A stretch of 32,089 nucleotides of DNA. Source: Prolixibacteraceae bacterium (GTDB taxonomy: Bacteria > Bacteroidota > Bacteroidia > Bacteroidales > Prolixibacteraceae). The stretch is from contig JAHEYS010000069.1 of assembly GCA_023251475.1 (NCBI GenBank), positions 1 to 32,089 on the forward strand, in the 5' to 3' direction. Positions 4,959-27,479 of the stretch are shown piece by piece (the first letter of the stretch is position 1; every line of letters starts with the position of its first letter). A program made the translations under genes and the position numbers. The notes beneath the pieces were generated by a model. It was not told where the DNA came from and searched no databases. It was given only the letters and a program-made list of their open reading frames with translations.

Positions 4959-7900
4959 TTAATGACCGGCTGCCCAATTCAGATAATTACAGAATATTTT
5001 CCTGGGAACCGCGCTTGCTTTTAAGTCTGACCACAAGTTCGGGACCAGGTCAAGCGAAGAGAACAGTATCTTGCCCTTTCCGTAAGGAACAATCCCTACC
5101 GACGTTGACACCAGGTGAGAGTTTCCTCCAACCAGCGACACCACTGCTTCTTCGCCCTGCATGTTATACAATCCGAAATGAGATGGCCCGTCATACATCA
5201 CTATTCTTTGGTATTCCCAGTTCATCCCTCCATTTACAGGCAAGTCTTCAAACAGGGGATGTTTGCGGACGAAGAAGTTACTGCCTACCCATGTTTTGGC
5301 AGGGTGAAAAACTTTAAAATCGGGAAAGGCATTCAATTTTTTCATTTGCTCAGACCAGTTTTCGCCATCTTCAATGATGACCAGGTTCGTTCCGTCTTCT
5401 TTTACCCTTTTTAAAAGTCCGGGGATATCCACTACCCATGGCATATAAGGTTGTTTCCATTTCAATGAAATCTCCCATGTTCCGGTGGCCTGATAGGCTT
5501 CAATTTTGACCTTATAAGCTTTGCCTGCTTCAAGCGTTGTATCAAATGTCTTGATTTTGGTGGGCCCGTTTGTCCATGAGTCAACCACGAGTTTGCTGTC
5601 GATCCATACTTTTGCACCATCATCCTGACTAAACTGAAACTGGGTAAGTCCGCTCACTTCAGAAACGATGTACCCCTCCCACCTGAGCGAGAAATCACTT
5701 TCACCCAGGATATCGTATCCCGGGATCAGCTTGCCTTTCAGATCAAAATATATCCCTGCGGTTGAGATGCGCTTATCCAGTAACTTGTCAAACGATTTCC
5801 CACGGTAATAATCCAGGTTTAAACCGGTGGTTTTGCCATCAGTACTCCTGTAATTGAAAGAGGGGATTGCTTTAAAAGTATTGCCTTGATCTATGGCACC
5901 GATGACGACATAATCCAACTTAGGCAGATTATCCTTATAGGCTACGACATCCGCCTTTTTAACATCTTTGACAAAGCTCAATAATTCACTGCTTCCACCC
6001 AAAACTGCACCCTTGCCTCCGATCCGGTCCGATTTCCAATCTACTGCAAAGAGTTCATCGTGACCCGTGGCCAATTCTTTCCCCTTATTATTCAGCAGGG
6101 TAGCCGTGATTTTATAGTATCCTTTCCCGGCTGTTAAACTGACCGGTACTTTTTCAGTTACCAGATCGCTGAACTTTTCATCTCCTGTAACATGGACATT
6201 GCCCCTGAACAGCTGTTTAATTGCGCCATCGGGCTGTAATACCCGTGCCCTGACCAAATAGTTTCCGGCAGGAATCGAATTTTCATTGATCACAAACATA
6301 TCAAAAAGGTTTACATCACCGGTATGTCCGATTTTGTCCCTCAGCTTCACGGCTACATACAACGGTTTCATGTACTGGCTGATCAGTTTCGGATCACCTT
6401 TCAGGTTCCGGTACACATCCACTGCTCCTGAAAAGTTATCATTCTTCATGTCTTCATACCCGTTCAGTACGTTGACATCGGCCCCATCTGCAATCCTGAC
6501 ATTTTCAACCAACCTGCCATGTTCATAATACATGATATTCCCCAGTGTGGTGATCAGTCCTGTCACCGAAGGATAATAACGGGCCAACCCTTTATTTTTA
6601 ATGTAGTCTGTGTAAGCAGAATGCCAGTCTCTGTAATCTGCTCCATCCCAGCCATTGATGCCCGATCTGGCGATTTTCGACTGGATCAGTTCAAGCTGTG
6701 GAGGTGATGCAATTGCGCCTTCCTCACCCCAAATAAATAATTCGTTTTCATTGCGTTCATTGCGACGGAAACTAAGCGGGGAATTGTAAAAGCAATCCAT
6801 GTACACACCCGGAGAGTTCCCTGCATTGTGAACATCTACAAATCCTGAGACACTCTGAGTCTGATCGTAGGGCAACATATGCAGCTTGTTGGGCTCCCCT
6901 TTGCCCGGATTCTGAAAACCAGAGCCATAAGAGATCCAGCGTGTTGGGTCCAACAGATGGGCTGCTGCCATATCTTTTTTGGCCTGCTCATCAGGATTCC
7001 AACCGGGTTCATTCACCATATTATAAATCACCAATGAAGGATGATTGCGGTCCCGTTTCACCAGGCGTAAAAACCGTTGACTGTTCAGTTGTCTGGCCAG
7101 ATCCAGGTTTTTCATTTTTGTCAACAGGGGATCTTTTTCCTTTAATCTGGAACTGCTGTATCCGCCCGGTTCTTCATAATACATGATTCCCATCTCATCA
7201 GCCATATTCAACACGAGCGAATTGCCCTGGCAGCGATGAAAATTGAGCATGTTCTGGCCCAAAGCGAGTGCCGACTGAATGTGTTTCCGGGCTAGTTCAG
7301 GTGTAGGGAAAATGCCATTCTCGGGCCAGAAACCCCAACTAATGGCAGACAGCAGAAAGGTGCGCTTTCCGTTGAAGAAGAGGCGGGCATTGGTGCCATA
7401 ACCTACTACACTCAAAAACCGGAATCCAAACCGCTGTGTGTAACGATCGATCACGCCACCCTTGTCATCTTTTAAGGTAACGACCAGGTTATACAGGTTT
7501 GCATCCCTGATCCCCCAAAGCACTGCCCCGGGTACATTTGCGCTGATCGAAACTTTCTGGAGATTACCGGCATCAACCGAAAACTTTCCGGCAGATGCGG
7601 TATAAACAGATTTAAGTGTGGCTACTGCAGCATTGTGTTTCCAGGCCTCAACAATTTCTACCCCAATAGTGCCTTTCAATTGTTGAGCCGATTCATTGTT
7701 GATTTCAATGTCGGCATCGATATCTCTTAGGGATGGTTTATTTTTGACAAACACATCCGACACATGAACAGCATTTAATATTTTCAGCTTAACCTGTCCC
7801 AATATACCCCCGAAACCATGCGATAACGGGAACAGATAATCGCCCCACTCAACTGCAGTATAATCACCCCAGCTAAAATTTCCACTGGGATCTGTTAAAC

Positions 7901-8483
7901 GGACTGCAAGTTTATTTGATGCTCCATAATTCACATAATCAGTTATATCCAAATCAAAAGGAGTTTGATGAATCAGTTCATATCCAACCAGTTTTTGATT
8001 GATATACACCTCTGCCCGCTGGCGAACTCCTTCTGAAAAGAATAATTTCACCCGTTTACCTTTTTCGATCTGTGGCACCTTAAAGTCCCGTCCCCACCAG
8101 CTCACGCCAATATAATCGCCTGTATTTCCCAATCCCTTTCTGCTTCCTGAAACGGCATCCCAAAAATACTGTTCAACAGTGCCTGGCACGCTGACATCCA
8201 TCGACAAAGAGGCATCAGCATAAATCTGTTTTGCCTGTTGAGCGGGCAGGCTTTTGGTGAAAAGCGATCCCCAACCGCATGTAGGAGCATGGTATGGCAT
8301 TTTTGAAACATCACCCGGAGGTAAAAACAAAGGGTCATTTTTCCACTCTGCTTTCTGATCAAGCCATAGTTTCCATCCGCCATCCAGAATAGTTGAGCCC
8401 GTATATTGCTGGCTCCTGACTAAGGTGAATCCAATAAGAATAATAAATAGTGTGAGGACTAATTTTTGATAAATATTGTACAT
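4959..8483 (-). CDS. Glycoside hydrolase family 2 with internal PA14-like module
   Basis: ORF track runs to 8618 using a TTG start, but the signal peptide MYNIYQKLVLTLFIILIGFTLVRSQ begins at ATG 8483. GH2 motifs RNHPSLVIYNMVNEPGWN and LFIWGEEG; PA14-like LIPGYDILGESDFSLRWEGYIVSEVSGLTQFQFSQDDGAKVWIDSKLVVDSW. Confidence 0.87.
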   Translation of the reverse strand: MYNIYQKLVLTLFIILIGFTLVRSQQYTGSTILDGGWKLWLDQKAEWKNDPLFLPPGDVSKMPYHAPTCGWGSLFTKSLPAQQAKQIYADASLSMDVSVPGTVEQYFWDAVSGSRKGLGNTGDYIGVSWWGRDFKVPQIEKGKRVKLFFSEGVRQRAEVYINQKLVGYELIHQTPFDLDITDYVNYGASNKLAVRLTDPSGNFSWGDYTAVEWGDYLFPLSHGFGGILGQVKLKILNAVHVSDVFVKNKPSLRDIDADIEINNESAQQLKGTIGVEIVEAWKHNAAVATLKSVYTASAGKFSVDAGNLQKVSISANVPGAVLWGIRDANLYNLVVTLKDDKGGVIDRYTQRFGFRFLSVVGYGTNARLFFNGKRTFLLSAISWGFWPENGIFPTPELARKHIQSALALGQNMLNFHRCQGNSLVLNMADEMGIMYYEEPGGYSSSRLKEKDPLLTKMKNLDLARQLNSQRFLRLVKRDRNHPSLVIYNMVNEPGWNPDEQAKKDMAAAHLLDPTRWISYGSGFQNPGKGEPNKLHMLPYDQTQSVSGFVDVHNAGNSPGVYMDCFYNSPLSFRRNERNENELFIWGEEGAIASPPQLELIQSKIARSGINGWDGADYRDWHSAYTDYIKNKGLARYYPSVTGLITTLGNIMYYEHGRLVENVRIADGADVNVLNGYEDMKNDNFSGAVDVYRNLKGDPKLISQYMKPLYVAVKLRDKIGHTGDVNLFDMFVINENSIPAGNYLVRARVLQPDGAIKQLFRGNVHVTGDEKFSDLVTEKVPVSLTAGKGYYKITATLLNNKGKELATGHDELFAVDWKSDRIGGKGAVLGGSSELLSFVKDVKKADVVAYKDNLPKLDYVVIGAIDQGNTFKAIPSFNYRSTDGKTTGLNLDYYRGKSFDKLLDKRISTAGIYFDLKGKLIPGYDILGESDFSLRWEGYIVSEVSGLTQFQFSQDDGAKVWIDSKLVVDSWTNGPTKIKTFDTTLEAGKAYKVKIEAYQATGTWEISLKWKQPYMPWVVDIPGLLKRVKEDGTNLVIIEDGENWSEQMKKLNAFPDFKVFHPAKTWVGSNFFVRKHPLFEDLPVNGGMNWEYQRIVMYDGPSHFGLYNMQGEEAVVSLVGGNSHLVSTSVGIVPYGKGKILFSSLDLVPNLWSDLKASAVPRKIFCNYLNWAAGH

Positions 8484-8603
8484 AACCAGTTTTCCCTTTG
8501 TAATTTTGAATAAACATTTCTCAACTGACTCCAATTTCTTTAGTCGGATTTTTGCCTCCAACCATGGCTCAATGACTCCTTGATAACTCAGAGAAGACTC
8601 CCC

Positions 8604-8743
8604 TATGACTCTCATCAATCGCGTACCTTTCCCGTAGGCTTCCCATACTTAACCCTGTACCAGATCCGTATATAGGATACGGAGGAGGTACGAGTCAGCT
8701 ATGGGAGACCATCCGGTGAAGTGCGGATAAGAAGGGAGTCATA
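8604..8743. repeat. Nested inverted-repeat element (possible structured RNA or MITE-like insertion)
   Basis: Perfect complementary arms: TATGACTC 8604-8611 / GAGTCATA 8736-8743; TCCCATA 8641-8647 / TATGGGA 8700-8706; GTACC 8657-8661 / GGTAC 8687-8691; TCCGTAT 8665-8671 / ATACGGA 8677-8683; side hairpin ATCCG 8711-8715 / CGGAT 8724-8728. Confidence 0.7.
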
Positions 8744-8789
8744 CCAGATTCGTGGGTAGGTATTTAACCTGTTTTTCAGGGGGGGTAAG

Positions 8790-11700
8790 TTACAATCCTA
8801 CCTTAAGACCAGATGAAGCTGAACCCTTTTGCCATTCTTCTGTTGTGGACCACTTCTGTGATTCTGTCGCGCCTGACAAGATTGCGGTTTGCAATACTGG
8901 CAATGTCCCCCATTTGGTAGTCGATAGTTGAACGCACAGTCTTATTTTGGTTCCGGGTTTCATGTTATCCAGGATATTATTTTGAAGACCTGTTTTTACG
9001 ACAATTGTTTTGCTATCTACAACCTTTCCTGCATCGTCTCCACTTTCAACTGTTACAGTAATACGGCTGTTTTCGGGTACTTCGCTCCAGGTCTGCAATT
9101 TGTTGCCTGCAGATGTAAACGGTCTCCATTCTGTAACCATGGTGCCTGATTGCAGCGCATCCATTCCCTTATCGGCCAATTCTTTAATAACGATGGGTCC
9201 AAGTGTGCTTTTGGTAATCAATACTTCATCCATGAGGTACTTACCGTGTTTCATCTTTATTGAACTTCCAATCATATCCAGAGGGCCGGCATAGGTCTTT
9301 TGCGGAAGCGATTTGTCAAGTTTGCCATTGATATACAATGAGCCCATTTCCAGTTCATGATTATAGGTATAGGCAACATGGGTCCATTTATTGGTTGTGA
9401 TTTTCGCACCACCATTGATGTCACGATCCTGAAATCCTAACCGGAGGCTTTCATCCTGGATACCTGCATTCAGGATAGTACCCGTGATATCTATATCTGC
9501 TCCCATCGGGGCCTGACCACTGAATAAACCAGCCTGGCCGTTTTCAAAAGATTCAATATTCACCCAGGCAGCCAGAGTAAAAGGTTTGCGATAGAGATCC
9601 AGTCCACCGGCTTTGATAAATGTCTGCTTATCACCAGTTTTGAATCCCTTTCCATTTTTGCCTGCTACAAATGAAGGGGTACCCTGCATCGGTAAGATAG
9701 CACCTGTGATCTGGTCTTTTACTCCATTTGGGAACTGTTCATCAAATGAGAGATAAACCAAAGGATCTTTGAGTGCAAGCCCAATACCTCCCGGGACAAT
9801 CATTTGCTGTGCAGCGGCATCTCCGACTTTCACACTGAACCGGCCTGAGCGGGGGAAATCATAGGTAAGGGATACATCATGTTTCGCACCTGCTTCCAGA
9901 GACAGTGGCTGATTGACCTCTACTTTACCCTCCACACTGATTGAAACACTCCCTTTATACAGATCGCTGCCAGTATTACCTGCCATGGCTGTATAATGCA
10001 GCACACCGTCATCGGTAATACTACTTCTTACTTTCGAAAGCGTAAGTTTAGCCGGGGCCTTAGTCACATTTACGGAACGGGTTACAATTTTCGAACCAAC
10101 GATGGCAGTAATTTGCTGTATACCACTCTTATATAAAGTGACATCGAAAGTATGAGATTTGGTTTCACCCGGTTCAATTTCAAAACGCCTTGTATCAGAT
10201 AGCTTGTCGGCATACAATTTAATATTTGCAATATCGAGCAGGTTACCATTGTTCTTTATAGTAACTGTAGTCATGAAGGATTCTCCTCCTTTGACAACAG
10301 CAGGTGCTTTCAAATCATAATCAAAATCTGCCTGGTACCTGCGGGGTACTTCAAATTCACCTGAGACACCCTGGACCGGATCTTTAAATCCGATTTTTAT
10401 TTTATGTTCGGTTGAACCAGTAACAGGCTCCGGACAAACGCCTCCTACATGAACTTTGAAAATACCTGGTTCAAGTACGCGTACCATAGCCGGGTTCAGT
10501 AAGGAAAGCTGGTAAGGGGTTAATTCGAAAGCTACTGATTTCTTCTCACCCTTCTTTAAAGTAACTCTTTCAAATCCTTTGAGTTCAATCACAGGTGTAT
10601 TTACCGAAGTCAGCATATCTGTAATATACAATTGTGCTACTTCATCACCATCGCGGTCACCTGTGTTTTCAATATCAACGTTAACAGTCACATAACCAGG
10701 ATTGTCTTTTTTAGGGATAGCCTGAAGATTGGAATATTTAAAAGAAGTATAACTTAAACCACTTCCGAAACGATAGAGTGGCTTGAACGGCATGTCGTAG
10801 TAGTCATAATTACGGCCTGAAGGTTCATAATTATAATGCAGGGGTAGCTGTCCGACATGGCGGGGAAATGTGATGGGTAATCTGCCGGCAGGATTTCGGT
10901 CGCCGAAGATCAGATCTGCCGTAGCATTTCCACCCTCTTCACCGGGAAACCAGGTTTCTAAAATGGCATCAATATTTTCATCTTCCCATGCCAATGTAAA
11001 AGGTTTTCCATTGACCAGTACAAGAACGACGGGTTTTCCGGTAGCCTGGATGGCTTTAATCAGCCTTCGCTGCATGCCTGGAATTTCGAGGGTAGCACCG
11101 TCCACATTTTCCCCGGTGGTTGATTTGAGAGCATTGGGTACGTTTCGACCATAATCACCTACTACCAGGATAACGGCATCTGCCTGCCTTGCTGTTTCCA
11201 CTGCCCGGACAATATTTGTAGTATCGGGTGAGAGAACATCACAGCCTTTTGAATAGATCACCTTTGTTGAGGAGCTTACATGTGATTTGACTGCAGTCAA
11301 AACCGTAACTGATTGACCGGGTGAACTCTTTCCGGAATAGTCTCCGGTCTGGGCCTCATCGGCATTGGGTCCAATGACGGCAATGGTCTTCAGGTCTTTA
11401 CGAAGAGGAAGCAATTTATCTTTATTCTTCAGCAGTACAGATCCCTGTACGGCAACCTCCCGGGCGAGTGCGCGGTGTTCCGGGGTATCGTATTCAGGCA
11501 ATTTATCCCAAACCATCTTACCCGTTCCCGGATTTTCGAAAAGTCCCAGCATAAACTTTGTCCTTAGTACCCGGCGTACATTCGGATCCAAATCACTTTC
11601 ACGTAGCAACCCCTTCTGCACGGCAGCCATCAATGCTTTTACATAAGCTGAACCACATTCGATATCGACACCCGCTATAATTGCAATCGCACTGGCATCC

Positions 11701-12578
11701 ATCAGATCTGTAGCTGTTGACTGTTTCCGGACAAAATTCTCGATCCCGCCACAGTCAGAAATCACAATACCTTTGAACCCCCATTCTTCGCGAAGTACTT
11801 TCTGAAGAAGCTCAGTGGAACCATTATCCGGAACACCGTTCCATGTGCCGTAAGCAGCCATGACACCTCCGGCCTGCGCCTCCTTTATCGCGGCGCGAAA
11901 TGGGACCAGATGGACGTTTCGCATCACCCGGTCGGAAAGTCCAACATCCTGACTGTCTCTTCCACCCAAAGGTTCGCCGTGACCGGCAAAATGCTTTGGA
12001 ACAGCAATCATATTTTCTCCCTGAAATCCATTAATCCACGAAACGCCCATGCGGCTTACCAGGTAGGGATCTTCGCCATAGGTCTCCTCTACGCGACCCC
12101 ACCGGGCATCACGGGCAACGTCCAGAACCGGTGACCAGCTGGCCCGCAATCCGGCAGCTTTCGACTCAACACCGGTTGCTTTTCCGATCTGTTTAATCAG
12201 ACTTGTATTAAATGTAGAGGCCATTTCAATGGCATGAGGATAAATTGTGGCCCCCGAGGAATAGGATTGTCCATGCAAACCTTCGGTCTTCAGCATCGGA
12301 GGTACTTTAAGCCTTGGAATACCTTTCGATCCCCAACTGTCAACGAGTTGGATAATTTTTTCTTCCAGTGTCAGTCTGGGCAGCAAGTCGTCAAGACGTT
12401 GTTCGACAGGTAAGTTCGGATCAAGATACTTAGGAGCTGCCAGATTTGATTTTGTCTCCTTTTGCTGTCCATAAGATGACTGAAAACAAACCAAAAGGCT
12501 ACCCATTATTAAGAGGAATGTATAGATCTTAAGAAAATTTTGAGATTGTAAAGGGAATGCAAATTTTATATGCTTCAT
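8790..12578 (-). CDS. Glycoside hydrolase family 3 with C-terminal CARDB-like and LamG/concanavalin-like regions
   Basis: GH3 motifs PMLKTEGLHG, RWGRVEETYGEDPYL, VPKHFAGHGEPLGGRD, GFKGIVISDCGGIENF (nucleophile Asp), LLKNKDKLLPL, FPGEEGGNATADLIFGDRNPAGRLPITFPR, FN3-like VNVDIENTGDRDGDEVAQLYI; then DPLVYLSFDEQFPNGVKDQ...KPFTLAAWVNIESF...KWTHVAYTYNHELEMGSLYINGKLD (LamG-like). Confidence 0.92.
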   Translation of the reverse strand: MKHIKFAFPLQSQNFLKIYTFLLIMGSLLVCFQSSYGQQKETKSNLAAPKYLDPNLPVEQRLDDLLPRLTLEEKIIQLVDSWGSKGIPRLKVPPMLKTEGLHGQSYSSGATIYPHAIEMASTFNTSLIKQIGKATGVESKAAGLRASWSPVLDVARDARWGRVEETYGEDPYLVSRMGVSWINGFQGENMIAVPKHFAGHGEPLGGRDSQDVGLSDRVMRNVHLVPFRAAIKEAQAGGVMAAYGTWNGVPDNGSTELLQKVLREEWGFKGIVISDCGGIENFVRKQSTATDLMDASAIAIIAGVDIECGSAYVKALMAAVQKGLLRESDLDPNVRRVLRTKFMLGLFENPGTGKMVWDKLPEYDTPEHRALAREVAVQGSVLLKNKDKLLPLRKDLKTIAVIGPNADEAQTGDYSGKSSPGQSVTVLTAVKSHVSSSTKVIYSKGCDVLSPDTTNIVRAVETARQADAVILVVGDYGRNVPNALKSTTGENVDGATLEIPGMQRRLIKAIQATGKPVVLVLVNGKPFTLAWEDENIDAILETWFPGEEGGNATADLIFGDRNPAGRLPITFPRHVGQLPLHYNYEPSGRNYDYYDMPFKPLYRFGSGLSYTSFKYSNLQAIPKKDNPGYVTVNVDIENTGDRDGDEVAQLYITDMLTSVNTPVIELKGFERVTLKKGEKKSVAFELTPYQLSLLNPAMVRVLEPGIFKVHVGGVCPEPVTGSTEHKIKIGFKDPVQGVSGEFEVPRRYQADFDYDLKAPAVVKGGESFMTTVTIKNNGNLLDIANIKLYADKLSDTRRFEIEPGETKSHTFDVTLYKSGIQQITAIVGSKIVTRSVNVTKAPAKLTLSKVRSSITDDGVLHYTAMAGNTGSDLYKGSVSISVEGKVEVNQPLSLEAGAKHDVSLTYDFPRSGRFSVKVGDAAAQQMIVPGGIGLALKDPLVYLSFDEQFPNGVKDQITGAILPMQGTPSFVAGKNGKGFKTGDKQTFIKAGGLDLYRKPFTLAAWVNIESFENGQAGLFSGQAPMGADIDITGTILNAGIQDESLRLGFQDRDINGGAKITTNKWTHVAYTYNHELEMGSLYINGKLDKSLPQKTYAGPLDMIGSSIKMKHGKYLMDEVLITKSTLGPIVIKELADKGMDALQSGTMVTEWRPFTSAGNKLQTWSEVPENSRITVTVESGDDAGKVVDSKTIVVKTGLQNNILDNMKPGTKIRLCVQLSTTKWGTLPVLQTAILSGATESQKWSTTEEWQKGSASSGLKVGL

Positions 12579-12768: not shown

Positions 12769-14118
12769 TTATACCGACCACGGAGTACGATAGTCGCGTG
12801 TGAGCCATTTGGGATCGCCGGTGCCACCAGTGAATTCCTTCTTTGCCGGATCCCATGTGAAGTGTGCATGGTGGTAATAGCTCTGGTTCATCAGGTGGCA
12901 GCAGATCGCGCTATGTCCACCCACGATCTCGTTCGTGATGGGTTTTTTGCGGCTCCGGACACACTCCATGAAGTCGGCAATATGGTTCGTGCTTTTATAC
13001 AGCTTTATCTTCGCATTCTGCAGATAGGCCTGCTCTGCTTTTTGTACCTCGGTTTCACACCTGGTCTTACCTTCCTTCTGTTGAACATCGGTATATTCGG
13101 CGATCGTTTTACCATCCACAATCAGTACGAACTTGCCCCGGTTCACTTTCACCTCGCCTTTAGAGCCGAAGAAATGGATGCCAAAGCCCTCCTTATGTTC
13201 CACATAAATACCATTGGCATAGACCAGCTTACACCCTTTTTTTGCATTCTCATCGACGGGAGGAATGACTTCCACCGGTCCGCTTCCGTCCATTCCGAGA
13301 CCCCACTGTGCAATGTCGAGATGATGTGCACCCCAGTCACCTACCGAGCCTGAACCATATTCCTTGTAATTCCGCCAGTTAGGAAATGTATTGTGTACAC
13401 CCCGGGGACTGAGTACCGAACTATAGGGCCGCATCGGGGCGGGGCCGCACCACATATCCCAATCAAGCCCTTGCTCCATAGGTTCCTCCGGCAGATTGCA
13501 CGGAATACCCGGTCCACCAAAACTGCATTCTACATGGCTGATCTTTCCGATAACTTCGTTTTGCACCAGCTCACAGGCGATACGGAATTCCCTGCTTGAA
13601 CGCTGCATCGAACCGGCTTGCAACACACGCTTATTCTCTTCAACGGCCTTCATCACCTCGACCGCTTCGTGAATGTTGTGTGTCAGCGGTTTCTCGCAAT
13701 AGACATCTTTCCCGGCACGCAGCGCCGCCAACATCGGGATGGCATGCCAGTGATCAGGGGTGGCAATGACGACTACGTCAATGTCTTTACGGTTGATGAT
13801 TTTCCGGAAATCATCGTAAGCGTGACAATCACTGTTTTTATAGAAATCGTCCACTGTTTTCTTCGCTGCATTGCGTCGGGTGGTATCTACATCGCATACG
13901 GCGACTATTTTAGTATCCTGACGACCGATGAAATTACGCATGAGTCCGCGCATTTGGGTCCCCATCCCGATGAGGCCCAAGTTCACTTTTTCATTTTCCC
14001 CGGTGGTCTTACCAGATAAGCCGCATGATTGGAGGATATAGGGGGCAACTACCGCCGAAGTGGCCAGATTCCTGAGAAAGTTCCGACGGGAATTTTGAGT
14101 TTTTTGTGAGTTTTCCAT
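12769..14118 (-). CDS. Gfo/Idh/MocA family oxidoreductase with Tat-type signal
   Basis: N-terminal SRRNFLRNLATSAVVAPYILQSC (twin-arginine), VNLGLIGMGTQMRGLMRNF (Rossmann), VVVIATPDHWHAIPMLAALRAGKDVYCEKPL (EKP motif), GSVGDWGAHHLDIAQWGLG. Confidence 0.93.
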   Translation of the reverse strand: MENSQKTQNSRRNFLRNLATSAVVAPYILQSCGLSGKTTGENEKVNLGLIGMGTQMRGLMRNFIGRQDTKIVAVCDVDTTRRNAAKKTVDDFYKNSDCHAYDDFRKIINRKDIDVVVIATPDHWHAIPMLAALRAGKDVYCEKPLTHNIHEAVEVMKAVEENKRVLQAGSMQRSSREFRIACELVQNEVIGKISHVECSFGGPGIPCNLPEEPMEQGLDWDMWCGPAPMRPYSSVLSPRGVHNTFPNWRNYKEYGSGSVGDWGAHHLDIAQWGLGMDGSGPVEVIPPVDENAKKGCKLVYANGIYVEHKEGFGIHFFGSKGEVKVNRGKFVLIVDGKTIAEYTDVQQKEGKTRCETEVQKAEQAYLQNAKIKLYKSTNHIADFMECVRSRKKPITNEIVGGHSAICCHLMNQSYYHHAHFTWDPAKKEFTGGTGDPKWLTRDYRTPWSV

Positions 14119-14213
14119 TTTAGTTTATTTGTTTGTTTTTATGTATAGATTATTCAAAAACTACGAAAATGATTTGGTTATACTGATATTATATTATTGA
14201 TACTTTTAAGTGT

Positions 14214-24161: not shown

Positions 24162-25730
24162 TTAAGGTGCAGGTACAGGGACCAGTGTAACGATATCGAC
24201 CGAAAAAAGGTATTGCCCAACCGCTTTTGGACTAACCCCGGCACATGTAAACGTGAGTTGAACCGGGCCATTGGCAGCCACATTAACCACTCCCAGATCT
24301 ACATCTGCACTCCCTTCGGCCAGCGAATAGAGGGTGGATGTATTCATATTTTGTTTGAGTAACTGGCTTCCACAGTTTACATTCACGATACATCCATTAT
24401 TATCGAGGTAATCTTTAAGAATAACCCTGTAATAACCTTGTGTGACAAATGGGAGGTTAAAATCAATCCGACCCCCAATGTTGACAAAATTAAAGCGTGT
24501 GGCAAATCCCCTGTAAGAAAAGGTGGCACTGGAGGGGGTTACATAAACAATTGCAGTACTGGTTCCACCTGAGAGTGCAACACCTGTGTTGAGTGAAAAT
24601 ACGCCGGTTGCACTTTTATAACTTGGCACAAACATATATCTGGGCCTGTAAACCACATCAGGTAAGGTAACATCATTCAGGGTAAAGTAAGAGCCGTTAC
24701 TGGCTGCTATCGTATTTCCCTGAACCTGACCGGAACTTACACTAAACTGATTTCCGGCGACATTGGTAAAAGTGTTAATTCCGGCGCCTAAACTCATTAC
24801 CTTGCCATTTACGATAATGTTTTTAAACAGATAATCTTTTAAAATGGCAGAATCTCCCTGATAGGCAAGACCTTTGGGTATGAAATAATAACCGATGGTA
24901 GTGTCTCCGTGTGCAGTGCCCAGTTTTGGAACAATCAGATCTGACCTGCCCGACCTGCCCTGAAGCAGTTTTGACATCACGGTATTAATGGCATTGTTGG
25001 TCGGAATAAATGCCGTTGCCACTGTTTTCTCGTCATCTATCTTTACATCATTGAGATATTGCGAAAACTGTTTATAAACAACAGGTTTTTGATAGATGGG
25101 TTTGTTGGTCAAATCATATCCGATAATGGTGTTTCTCAATGGATCCGGTATGGTAACATAACCGGTTGCGATATAATTGCTAAATAATGAGAAGTCCGGA
25201 TTACCTGAAATCGTCTCCAAAAGGTTCAGATTTGGTACGATCAGATGATCAATTTCATAGATCACACCGTTTAATCCCTTCGTACCGGCATCAGAAATCC
25301 TGAACCCATTGGCAGCATGTCCGTCACTTAATACAGAAAAGTTAACCGGTTTTCCTGAACAGGCCAGAATATTCGTATTGGACATATTCTGAGGGAAAAT
25401 GGAAGAGGGGAAAATATGAGTTCCGATTATCCGCTTAAGTGATACCATATTATTCGTGGTATCGATTGCTGTGAACCCGCCGTTTTTAACAGCCAGTACC
25501 GTATAAAGATCGGTTCTCCTCAGTAAAGAGTCATATCCGGTTTTTTTAAGTAAGCCCCTGAATTCGGTATAAACCGGATTCTTTGTTAACAGGGTATAAA
25601 CGCTTCCCTCGTTCAGGTAATCCGGCGTTGCATAGTGGTCATCCCACTTGTTTGTGGTGCAGGAATAACCCAGCAGCAGGAACAAGCTGGTTATGATGCT
25701 GGTTGATAATTTTTGTATGTTTCTTTTCAT
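24162..25730 (-). CDS. FAS1 (fasciclin) domain lipoprotein with C-terminal beta-sandwich-like region
   Basis: Lipobox LLLGYSC; SVYTLLTKNPVYTEFRGLLKKTGYDSLLRRTDLYTVLAVKNGGF and GLNGVIYEIDHLIVPN are FAS1-like; C-terminal YYRVILKDYLDNNGCIVNVNCGSQLL...YLFSVDIVTLVPVP. Confidence 0.8.
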   Translation of the reverse strand: MKRNIQKLSTSIITSLFLLLGYSCTTNKWDDHYATPDYLNEGSVYTLLTKNPVYTEFRGLLKKTGYDSLLRRTDLYTVLAVKNGGFTAIDTTNNMVSLKRIIGTHIFPSSIFPQNMSNTNILACSGKPVNFSVLSDGHAANGFRISDAGTKGLNGVIYEIDHLIVPNLNLLETISGNPDFSLFSNYIATGYVTIPDPLRNTIIGYDLTNKPIYQKPVVYKQFSQYLNDVKIDDEKTVATAFIPTNNAINTVMSKLLQGRSGRSDLIVPKLGTAHGDTTIGYYFIPKGLAYQGDSAILKDYLFKNIIVNGKVMSLGAGINTFTNVAGNQFSVSSGQVQGNTIAASNGSYFTLNDVTLPDVVYRPRYMFVPSYKSATGVFSLNTGVALSGGTSTAIVYVTPSSATFSYRGFATRFNFVNIGGRIDFNLPFVTQGYYRVILKDYLDNNGCIVNVNCGSQLLKQNMNTSTLYSLAEGSADVDLGVVNVAANGPVQLTFTCAGVSPKAVGQYLFSVDIVTLVPVPAP

Positions 25731-25781
25731 GAGTATTTTTTTAATTTGATCTGGCTTTGATGAGTATTAATCCGTTTCAAT

Positions 25782-25825
25782 GTTGCCAGGTCGCTTTGGT
25801 TCATTTCAAAGCGACGCTGAGCAAC
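25782..25825. promoter_or_regulatory. Strong intergenic stem-loop between the two FAS1 genes
   Basis: GTTGC-CAG-GTCGCTTTG (25782-25798), 8-nt loop (25799-25806), CAAAGCGAC-G-CTG-A-GCAAC (25807-25825): 17 bp with two 1-nt bulges. T6 follows at 25826-25831 on the plus strand (A6 precedes the stem on the transcribed minus strand). Confidence 0.75.
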
Positions 25826-25835
25826 TTTTTTACCA

Positions 25836-27479
25836 TTAATTACTTGGCCGTAGTTCCAGGGAATGAAAATATATTCGTGAATTGTCAATAAGAACCTGGG
25901 TTTTTAAGGTGTGCTGCTTCAATTCGGTAAGCGTCACTGTCCCCAGTTTCCGTTGCATTTTCTGCTGTGTTTTGGTGGCATTGACTACAATATTTCCGAA
26001 GGCATCAGTAAGGGAATTTAAATTAACCAGATCACCAAACTGTTTTCCATCCCATGTGAATAGTACGTTATGGTCAATATTGCTTTGAAGGGCATAAATT
26101 AAGTAAACATCATATTTCCCTTTAAAGATTTGTGAAGTGGTAAGCTGCATATAATATGGGTCCCCCGATGTCGCCTGATTGTATTTCAGGGTGGGTTCGG
26201 TTCCAAAAGCTGCCGCCACGACATCAAAATTCATACTATTGGTAAAGTATTCCCATTTAAGCCATGGCACTGCAGCCTGCCCTGCGGGGTCGTTTTTCAA
26301 TGTATTCATTAAAGAGTTCGTAAAGGTTGATTTTGTGCCGTTCACCAGAGTAACGGCTACCGGGCCGGGATTATACCGCGTGATCACCAGTACAGGTTTT
26401 GGATTATATACACTCAGAACAGAGGCTACAGAGTTGACGATACCGTTCTTTGTCACAATATTGCTTTTATCAATATCAACTTTTACACTTACTGAAGTGG
26501 TAACCGGCTGACCATTCACAATTGTTGTTTCATCATGTTTGTTGATGGTAATCCCCTGGGTGATATTAAAAATCAGGAAATCGCCAGGATTGAGTGATTC
26601 AATATATTCTTCCCTGATACTGGAAACAAAATACTCGCGCCCTAAACAATGATAGCGGACAAAAATATTCAGGGAGTCAGACGGATTCGTATACTGTTTG
26701 GTTGTCTTATATGAATTGGAGTATTTTCGGGCAAGGTCGTCAAACGAATTAATGCCCGCCTTGCTTAATACATCATTGGTTTCCAGAAAGATTGTTTTCA
26801 TCTTTTTGAAAGGAAGGCCGTAAATGATTTGCGAATTATCGAACTCTACCTTACTTAGAATATCCAGATCAGCGCCGGTTTTTTGAAAAGCCTCGGCTAT
26901 AATGGAATACTGAGGCTGACTTCTGATCCAGCTATACAGGGTATTGACAGGAGGCTCAAGAACATCATCAATCACATGAACCACTCCATTTGTAACCGGA
27001 ACATCAAGTTTGATAACATTCACCGTGTTATTTAAGACCGTATTTTTTAATCCCTTCGAAATATCCATTCCGATATAATCACCTTCAACAGTTGTCACCG
27101 GTAAGGAGCCGGTAAGAAAAAATGAGGAGCCATACTGAAGGGCATAGATATGATACAACATCACGTTTTTCAGGGTATCCATATTCACCTGAGTCAATGA
27201 AGCCTTCCCCTTTCGTTGAAAATATTTTCTGAAAGCATCATTTGTTGGCGCAAACAAGGTTGTACTTCCATATACATTCAGTAATCCTGATATCCTGGTG
27301 GTATCCAATGCCTGAAGTAATATAGAAAATGTCGTATCATTTTTAAGAAGAGCCAATATCGATTTATTATTGGCCTGCAAATTAAGCGTACCTGAGAATT
27401 CATTCCTTTTACATGAAAATAAAGTCACAATTATCAGGAAGACCAGTGTAGTTTTAAAAATATTTAATGTCTTTTTCAT
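25836..27479 (-). CDS. FAS1 (fasciclin) domain lipoprotein with C-terminal beta-sandwich-like region
   Basis: Lipobox VTLFSC; FSILLQALDTTRISGLLNVYGSTTLFAPTNDAFRKYF...LKNVMLYHI...NGVVHVIDDVLEPP is a classic FAS1 signature; second FAS1-like segment follows; C-terminal YDVYLIYALQSN...LGTVTLTELKQHTLKTQVLIDNSRIYFHSLELRP. Confidence 0.88.
   Translation of the reverse strand: MKKTLNIFKTTLVFLIIVTLFSCKRNEFSGTLNLQANNKSILALLKNDTTFSILLQALDTTRISGLLNVYGSTTLFAPTNDAFRKYFQRKGKASLTQVNMDTLKNVMLYHIYALQYGSSFFLTGSLPVTTVEGDYIGMDISKGLKNTVLNNTVNVIKLDVPVTNGVVHVIDDVLEPPVNTLYSWIRSQPQYSIIAEAFQKTGADLDILSKVEFDNSQIIYGLPFKKMKTIFLETNDVLSKAGINSFDDLARKYSNSYKTTKQYTNPSDSLNIFVRYHCLGREYFVSSIREEYIESLNPGDFLIFNITQGITINKHDETTIVNGQPVTTSVSVKVDIDKSNIVTKNGIVNSVASVLSVYNPKPVLVITRYNPGPVAVTLVNGTKSTFTNSLMNTLKNDPAGQAAVPWLKWEYFTNSMNFDVVAAAFGTEPTLKYNQATSGDPYYMQLTTSQIFKGKYDVYLIYALQSNIDHNVLFTWDGKQFGDLVNLNSLTDAFGNIVVNATKTQQKMQRKLGTVTLTELKQHTLKTQVLIDNSRIYFHSLELRPSN

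Follow-up and report, generated by a model that had tools for sequence, protein, structure and literature searches.

Between two glycoside hydrolase genes of a sugar-degrading gene cluster in the genome of a Prolixibacteraceae bacterium lies a stretch of DNA that folds back on itself, and the question is whether this hairpin serves its neighbours or is a repeat that came to lie between them. The window, i.e., the whole stretch of DNA analysed, is 32,089 nucleotides long, and the gap that holds the hairpin (306 bp, 8484-8789) is its longest, as the initial annotation had claimed, against 13-190 bp for the other gaps. The distance from the GH3 stop codon to the element is 46 bp. The features concerned are the following:

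8604..8743, either strand: foldback element, a long imperfect hairpin closed by TATGACTC/GAGTCATA (folding z-score, self-complementarity, match to the covariance model R2 described below)
4959..8483, minus strand: downstream gene, a GH2 glycoside hydrolase with a PA14 domain (Pfam GH2 domains and PA14)
8790..12578, minus strand: upstream gene, a GH3 glycoside hydrolase (Pfam GH3 N, GH3 C and Fn3-like)

The hairpin had been described from four nested pairs of complementary arms, TATGACTC/GAGTCATA, TCCCATA/TATGGGA, GTACC/GGTAC and TCCGTAT/ATACGGA, all of which are present where they had been placed, around an apex loop at about 8672-8676 that is 5 nt long in the folds of both strands. A further hairpin, ATCCG/CGGAT (8711-8715/8724-8728), also exists as sequence, but it competes with the main stem. 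Hence the inverted-repeat observation holds for its arms, its gap and its structure beyond chance, whereas the multi-branched model built on it fails because the optimal and centroid folds of both strands consist of a single unbranched stem. The 140 nt reach a folding energy of -57.0 kcal/mol as plus strand and -61.2 kcal/mol as minus strand, whereas shuffles average -37 to -39 kcal/mol; the z-scores are -5.42 and -5.37, respectively, and none of 200 shuffles folded as well. The whole 306-bp gap folds with a z of just -1.48. Aligned with its own reverse complement, the gap scores 43, against 20.3 ± 4.4 and a maximum of 40 in 300 shuffles, and the 8604-8743 region tops the self-complementarity ranking of the whole window. 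The gap 25731-25835, between the genes 24162-25730 and 25836-27479, also contains a compact and strong hairpin, GTTGC...GCAAC; its 105 nt fold at -27.8 kcal/mol, and its period is not 11.

Stability alone is not distinctive in this genome, as about 360 kb of it contain 8 further foldbacks (approximately one per 40 kb) that are equally or more stable for their GC content. What marks the window element out is an 11-bp periodicity, which the initial annotation did not mention: when the minus strand of the gap is written in rows of 11, it reads as a degenerate tandem array with three parts:

8604..8672, minus strand: purine-rich arm of degenerate 11-bp units (GTATGGGAAGC, CTACGGGAAAG, GTACGCGATTG and others; lag-11 autocorrelation)
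8676..8743, minus strand: pyrimidine-rich arm, containing GTACCTCCTCCG (lag-11 identity 0.456, z 3.1)
8559..8603, minus strand: array continuing outside the hairpin (GGGAGTCTTCT, CTGAGTTATCA, AGGAGTCATTG; lag-11 identity)

The autocorrelation of the purine-rich arm peaks at lag 11, where identity is 0.448 (z 3.3; p 0.0012 for this lag). The array extends about 45 bp beyond the hairpin, on one side only, with a lag-11 identity of 0.48-0.55 across 8555-8621 (33-nt steps). For the whole gap this identity is 0.38 (z 5.5), and for 8560-8675 it is 0.476 (z 5.27); the latter signal is not inflated by the pairing of the arms, because the stretch holds one arm and its outer flank. In the GH2-side half of the gap, a region that was not chosen, lag 11 is again the best, with p 0.0038 over all lags from 5 to 40, and z is 2.8 for lag 11 in the other half. 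Elsewhere in the window, a degenerate 25-bp tandem repeat (14092-14139) spans a gene start and an intergenic gap.

The first relatives came from R1, a covariance model built from the window hairpin alone and run over 140 genomes of the family. Besides the window, R1 matched one other locus, G002:C22:130158-130305 (E 4e-6), which is a long foldback with arms of clean tandem 11-bp units (GTACGAGATAG; consensus AGGTACGAGAT). Direct alignment of this element with that of the window spans both arms (z 6.9, reached by none of 200 dinucleotide shuffles) and is the best among 130 foldbacks compared with the window element, and the window units match GTACGAGATAG better than permuted units only at p 0.03. 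When the window element and three G002 elements are aligned with MAFFT, they fall into unit register, the pyrimidine-rich arm of the window included, and 87% of the cells of the four-sequence alignment pair, while sliding the structure by 1-3 columns cuts pairing to 32-44%. Paired positions covary: 12 of 37 pairs have changed on both sides and still pair, against 5.5 ± 1.7 in shuffles, a figure that comes from four sequences, with the structure taken from the same four, and with tandem arms that can homogenise each other. The stem in the window is more decayed than those of the G002 copies. G002 also contains foldbacks with a 7-bp period (L115, L123, L128, L129 and L131), whose units are GGGAGAC-, GTCATTA- and AAAAAGG-like.

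A second covariance model, R2, was built from the window and three G002 copies, and 25 candidates were scored per genome, so that all counts are lower bounds. R2 matches the window at 8614-8729, inside the limits of the hairpin, the window being one of its training sequences. Overall, it has matches in at least 9 of the 140 family genomes and 6 of 23 genera, including loci outside the training set. These comprise at least three new loci in G002 (on C58, C2 and C5; E 3.5e-20 to 4e-10), places on at least 14 contigs of G003 (best E 1.7e-10), and weaker matches in G076, G077, G110, G133, G135 and G117. R2 finds about 15 loci when run on 0.9 Mb drawn from G002 and the genus of G077, and in 1.13 Mb of control DNA rich in other foldbacks it gave no match at E<=5.

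A multi-copy case is the genus of G077, in which a 103-bp core recurs at many scattered loci; it was found in all four genomes of the genus and in no other genome of the family. In G077, three copies share 99-100% identity and three others 92-93%, and such near-identical cores at unlinked loci argue for a spread that, judged from sequence, was probably recent in this genus. Outside the core, the copies in G077 carry one of two arm types, with ACGGATTAAGG-like or GGAGGAGGTAC-like units. A left arm generally pairs better with right arms of its own type, scoring 11-31, than with those of the other, scoring 7-12; therefore, the arms tend to change together. The motif GTACCTCCTCCG is common to the window arm and two G077 copies. 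An RTAY motif every 11 bp was considered as a universal grammar of these elements and rejected, as it is strong in G002 and absent as such in G077. At L110:18178-18406 in G077, a tandem array of approximately 34-bp units (GATAAATCAATTATTGATATTTAACCCAGCGTC) adjoins an 11-bp foldback.

The 11-bp period also emerged from a scan in which no period was assumed: foldbacks were called in stretches of three genomes, and the dominant autocorrelation lag of their arms was then scored. Lag 11 leads the periodic foldbacks (z>3) of both relatives: in G077, 400 kb yielded 12 of them, 10 with this lag, and in G002, 376 kb yielded 24, 13 with this lag. These stretches were partly picked for containing a match, so that the densities are not genome averages. 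For the window's own genome, the scan covered 548 kb of called bases (about 10% of the genome), and there the window element, with a self-complementarity of 43-49, best lag 11 and z 4.6, is the sole lag-11 case among 51 foldbacks. Samples of other genomes of the family and order, mostly short, yielded a single foldback of lag 11, found in G074, a member of the genus of G077. These results allow an 11-bp foldback class of Prolixibacteraceae to be defined here by a self-complementarity of 40 or more over 300 nt, a dominant arm lag of 11, a pyrimidine-rich 5' arm and beyond-chance similarity to another member, and all four features are found in the window element. The 5' arm is pyrimidine-rich (>0.5) in 20 of 24 class members, as opposed to 40 of 107 other intergenic foldbacks, and the pyrimidine fraction of the 5' arm in the window element (8604-8743) is 0.67.

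The same genome holds further foldbacks of note. Those at L052:5344-5554 (C476) and L055:5245-5376 (C480) share the architecture with tandem units of 9-10 bp (CACTTTAGT/CACTTTAGCT and CACATTAGG-like, respectively), and a very strong one at L071:1861-2081 (C100) has the ends AGATTGCTTCGTC.../...GACGAAGCAATCT, which we take to resemble those of the CGTC-tagged REP superfamily.

The feature in the window is thus probably a decayed, non-coding, dispersed foldback repeat of the Prolixibacteraceae, similar to a MITE or REP and built from inverted 11-bp arrays. Its two arms would be inverted arrays of approximately 11-bp tandem units, with the pyrimidine-rich arm first and a very short loop between them. 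The repeat would have entered the space between GH3 and GH2 as a mobile or recombinogenic element that is non-autonomous, and would have lost its perfect pairing afterward. Because it lies between two co-directional genes, the operon transcript would fold into a long stem of double-stranded RNA at the junction of the two cistrons; this stem could alter processing or the relative expression of GH2 as a by-product, not as the reason for the presence of the element.

Of the earlier interpretations, the MITE-like insertion comes closest, since related foldbacks occur in multiple copies at unlinked loci in relatives; the multiple dispersed copies that typify a MITE are found in G002, G003 and the G077 genus but not in the window's genome. 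Indeed, against the foldback-repeat reading stand the single R2 copy in that genome and the absence of any in 17 other genomes of the same genus (among the candidates scored in each case). Target duplication, defined ends, an empty site and a mobilising enzyme were not found either: the ends TATGACTC/GAGTCATA allow a possible TA duplication, but a search of 61 genomes for this TA-flanked pattern, TATGACTC...GAGTCATA, returned the window only. Four features of the data also weigh against it, namely, that the window trains R2, that covariation comes from four sequences, that the units match GTACGAGATAG better than permuted ones only at p 0.03 and that the scan took in about a tenth of the window's genome. 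The lone degenerate copy in the window looks like a relic.

A more far-reaching proposal, offered tentatively, is that these are copies of a new bacterial foldback element that spreads and remakes its own arms, with whole arms of 11-bp units being replaced together, so that the units come to differ between lineages while neither the 11-bp pitch nor the pairing changes. Such replacement might occur by hairpin-templated synthesis, or the arms might be shaped by helical-phase selection exerted by a putative double-strand-binding protein or recombinase. The fixed pitch is the feature least explained, as it is constant across several genera while the unit sequences differ.

A different explanation is that the element is a cis-acting operon RNA, an intercistronic hairpin selected to tune how stable the GH3 and GH2 messages are or how they are processed or translated. 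It is consistent with the position between co-directional genes, with the slightly greater stability of the transcribed (minus) strand and with the covariation of paired positions with the G002 copies. However, orthologues of the GH2 gene in G099 and G396 (60-63% identical) have upstream gaps of 108 and 125 bp from which the foldback is missing, and the suggested conserved regulatory RNA upstream of GH2 genes is not borne out at these loci. The genes farther upstream differ there, and, because of this, synteny with G099 and G396 is silent on insertion at the GH3-GH2 gap. Furthermore, relatives of the element lie beside unrelated genes in all orientations, with 14 tandem, 3 convergent and 3 divergent cases; the pairing of the window stem is more eroded than in the G002 copies, and both strands are similarly stable. 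Selection as an RNA of this operon is, consequently, unlikely. A terminator or insulator role was considered and discarded, as the gene orientations give no clear enrichment, and the gap holds no terminator-like site. The gap 5' of the GH2 orthologue in G396 (L029:6539-6663) has an unrelated near-perfect hairpin of its own, AAAGAGAGAAAAGGCA...TGCCTTTTCTCTCTTT.

Another possibility is that the 11-bp units are sites on one face of the helix for a putative protein, selection on phase keeping the pitch. A-form double-stranded RNA makes one turn per 11 bp, so that a binding protein could select for phase; a pitch that is retained in several genera despite differing units, together with G077 arm types that change together, would fit it. 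A copying mechanism with a fixed unit length accounts equally for these data, however, and the window copy is degenerate; moreover, we know of no protein or binding site for such an array. A helically phased binding array is, therefore, a rather improbable account of the window element.

Even more improbable is a chance foldback in unconstrained intergenic DNA whose periodicity is coincidental. Foldbacks of equal strength are frequent in this genome, as noted above, and nucleotide searches would agree with such an origin: BLASTN against the own genome found no second copy of the element, and against 140 genomes of the family and 393 of the order it returned scattered matches of 22-50 nt only (E down to 2e-4). 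With plasmids and phages included, the matches were of 20-50 nt, many of them in an AT-rich stretch near the GH2 start, and they are taken as chance. A search for the exact G002 unit pattern in viral contigs gave no match. Opposed to this, the 11-bp period and the sequence similarity, both shared with the G002 elements, and the specificity of R2 make coincidence unlikely.

The initial annotation could assign the gap to no known family and saw nothing recognisably coding in it, and both statements hold, as an Rfam search of the hairpin at gathering thresholds and then at E<=10 gave chance matches only, and a six-frame Pfam search gave nothing above chance. Its suggestion of a degraded group II intron, or of a remnant of another coding mobile element, was drawn from the apparent nested stems and can be dismissed almost entirely, since Rfam intron models at E<=10, six-frame Pfam searches and DNA of the own and family genomes supplied no intron RNA, protein or homologous DNA match.

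As a foldback repeat, the element has two consequences beyond this locus. Inverted arrays with a fixed 11-bp pitch, with differing units in several genera of one family and with outer arms that switch type together, form a natural series for asking which enzyme or constraint sets the pitch and maintains the pairing of the arms. They also advise caution, as a striking hairpin within a polysaccharide-utilisation locus can turn out to be a decayed repeat instead of a local riboregulator. No description of the 11-bp inverted-array architecture was found in the open-access literature that was searched, and the 11-bp-unit foldback is apparently an undescribed type of scattered bacterial repeat.

Dispersed bacterial palindromes are usually short, as are REPs, or derived from transposons, as are MITEs. 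Tm1 of root-knot nematodes is a foldback transposon of eukaryotes (PMC3169594). FB of Drosophila is another. Eukaryotic foldback transposons have long inverted repeats with tandem repeats within the arms, as the window element does, and they are larger; the likeness is best regarded as a working analogy and not as homology. Among bacteria, REPs are 20-40 bp long with a GTAG or CGTC tag at one end, the CGTC type having been reported in Bacteroidetes (PMC3733652). Like these, the window element belongs with dispersed intergenic palindromes able to fold as DNA or RNA; unlike REPs, which have no internal tandem structure, it is about 140 bp long (its relatives about 130-280 bp), has arms of 11-bp tandem units and bears no GTAG or CGTC tag at the foot of its stem. 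The TAACTGA heptamer forms short intergenic tandem arrays of direct repeats in some Bacteroidetes (PMC4679880), and these have a 7-bp period and are direct, whereas the period of the window element is 11 bp and its arrays are inverted. The Porphyromonas gingivalis MITE BrickBuilt has 23-nt direct tandem repeats and small inverted-repeat ends, and the 464/PgRS repeats have 41-nt units (PMC4596501). Both resemble the window element in being dispersed, non-coding, found in Bacteroidetes and composed of short tandem units without spacers; unlike BrickBuilt, the window element has 11-bp units arranged as two mutually inverted arrays that form a long hairpin.
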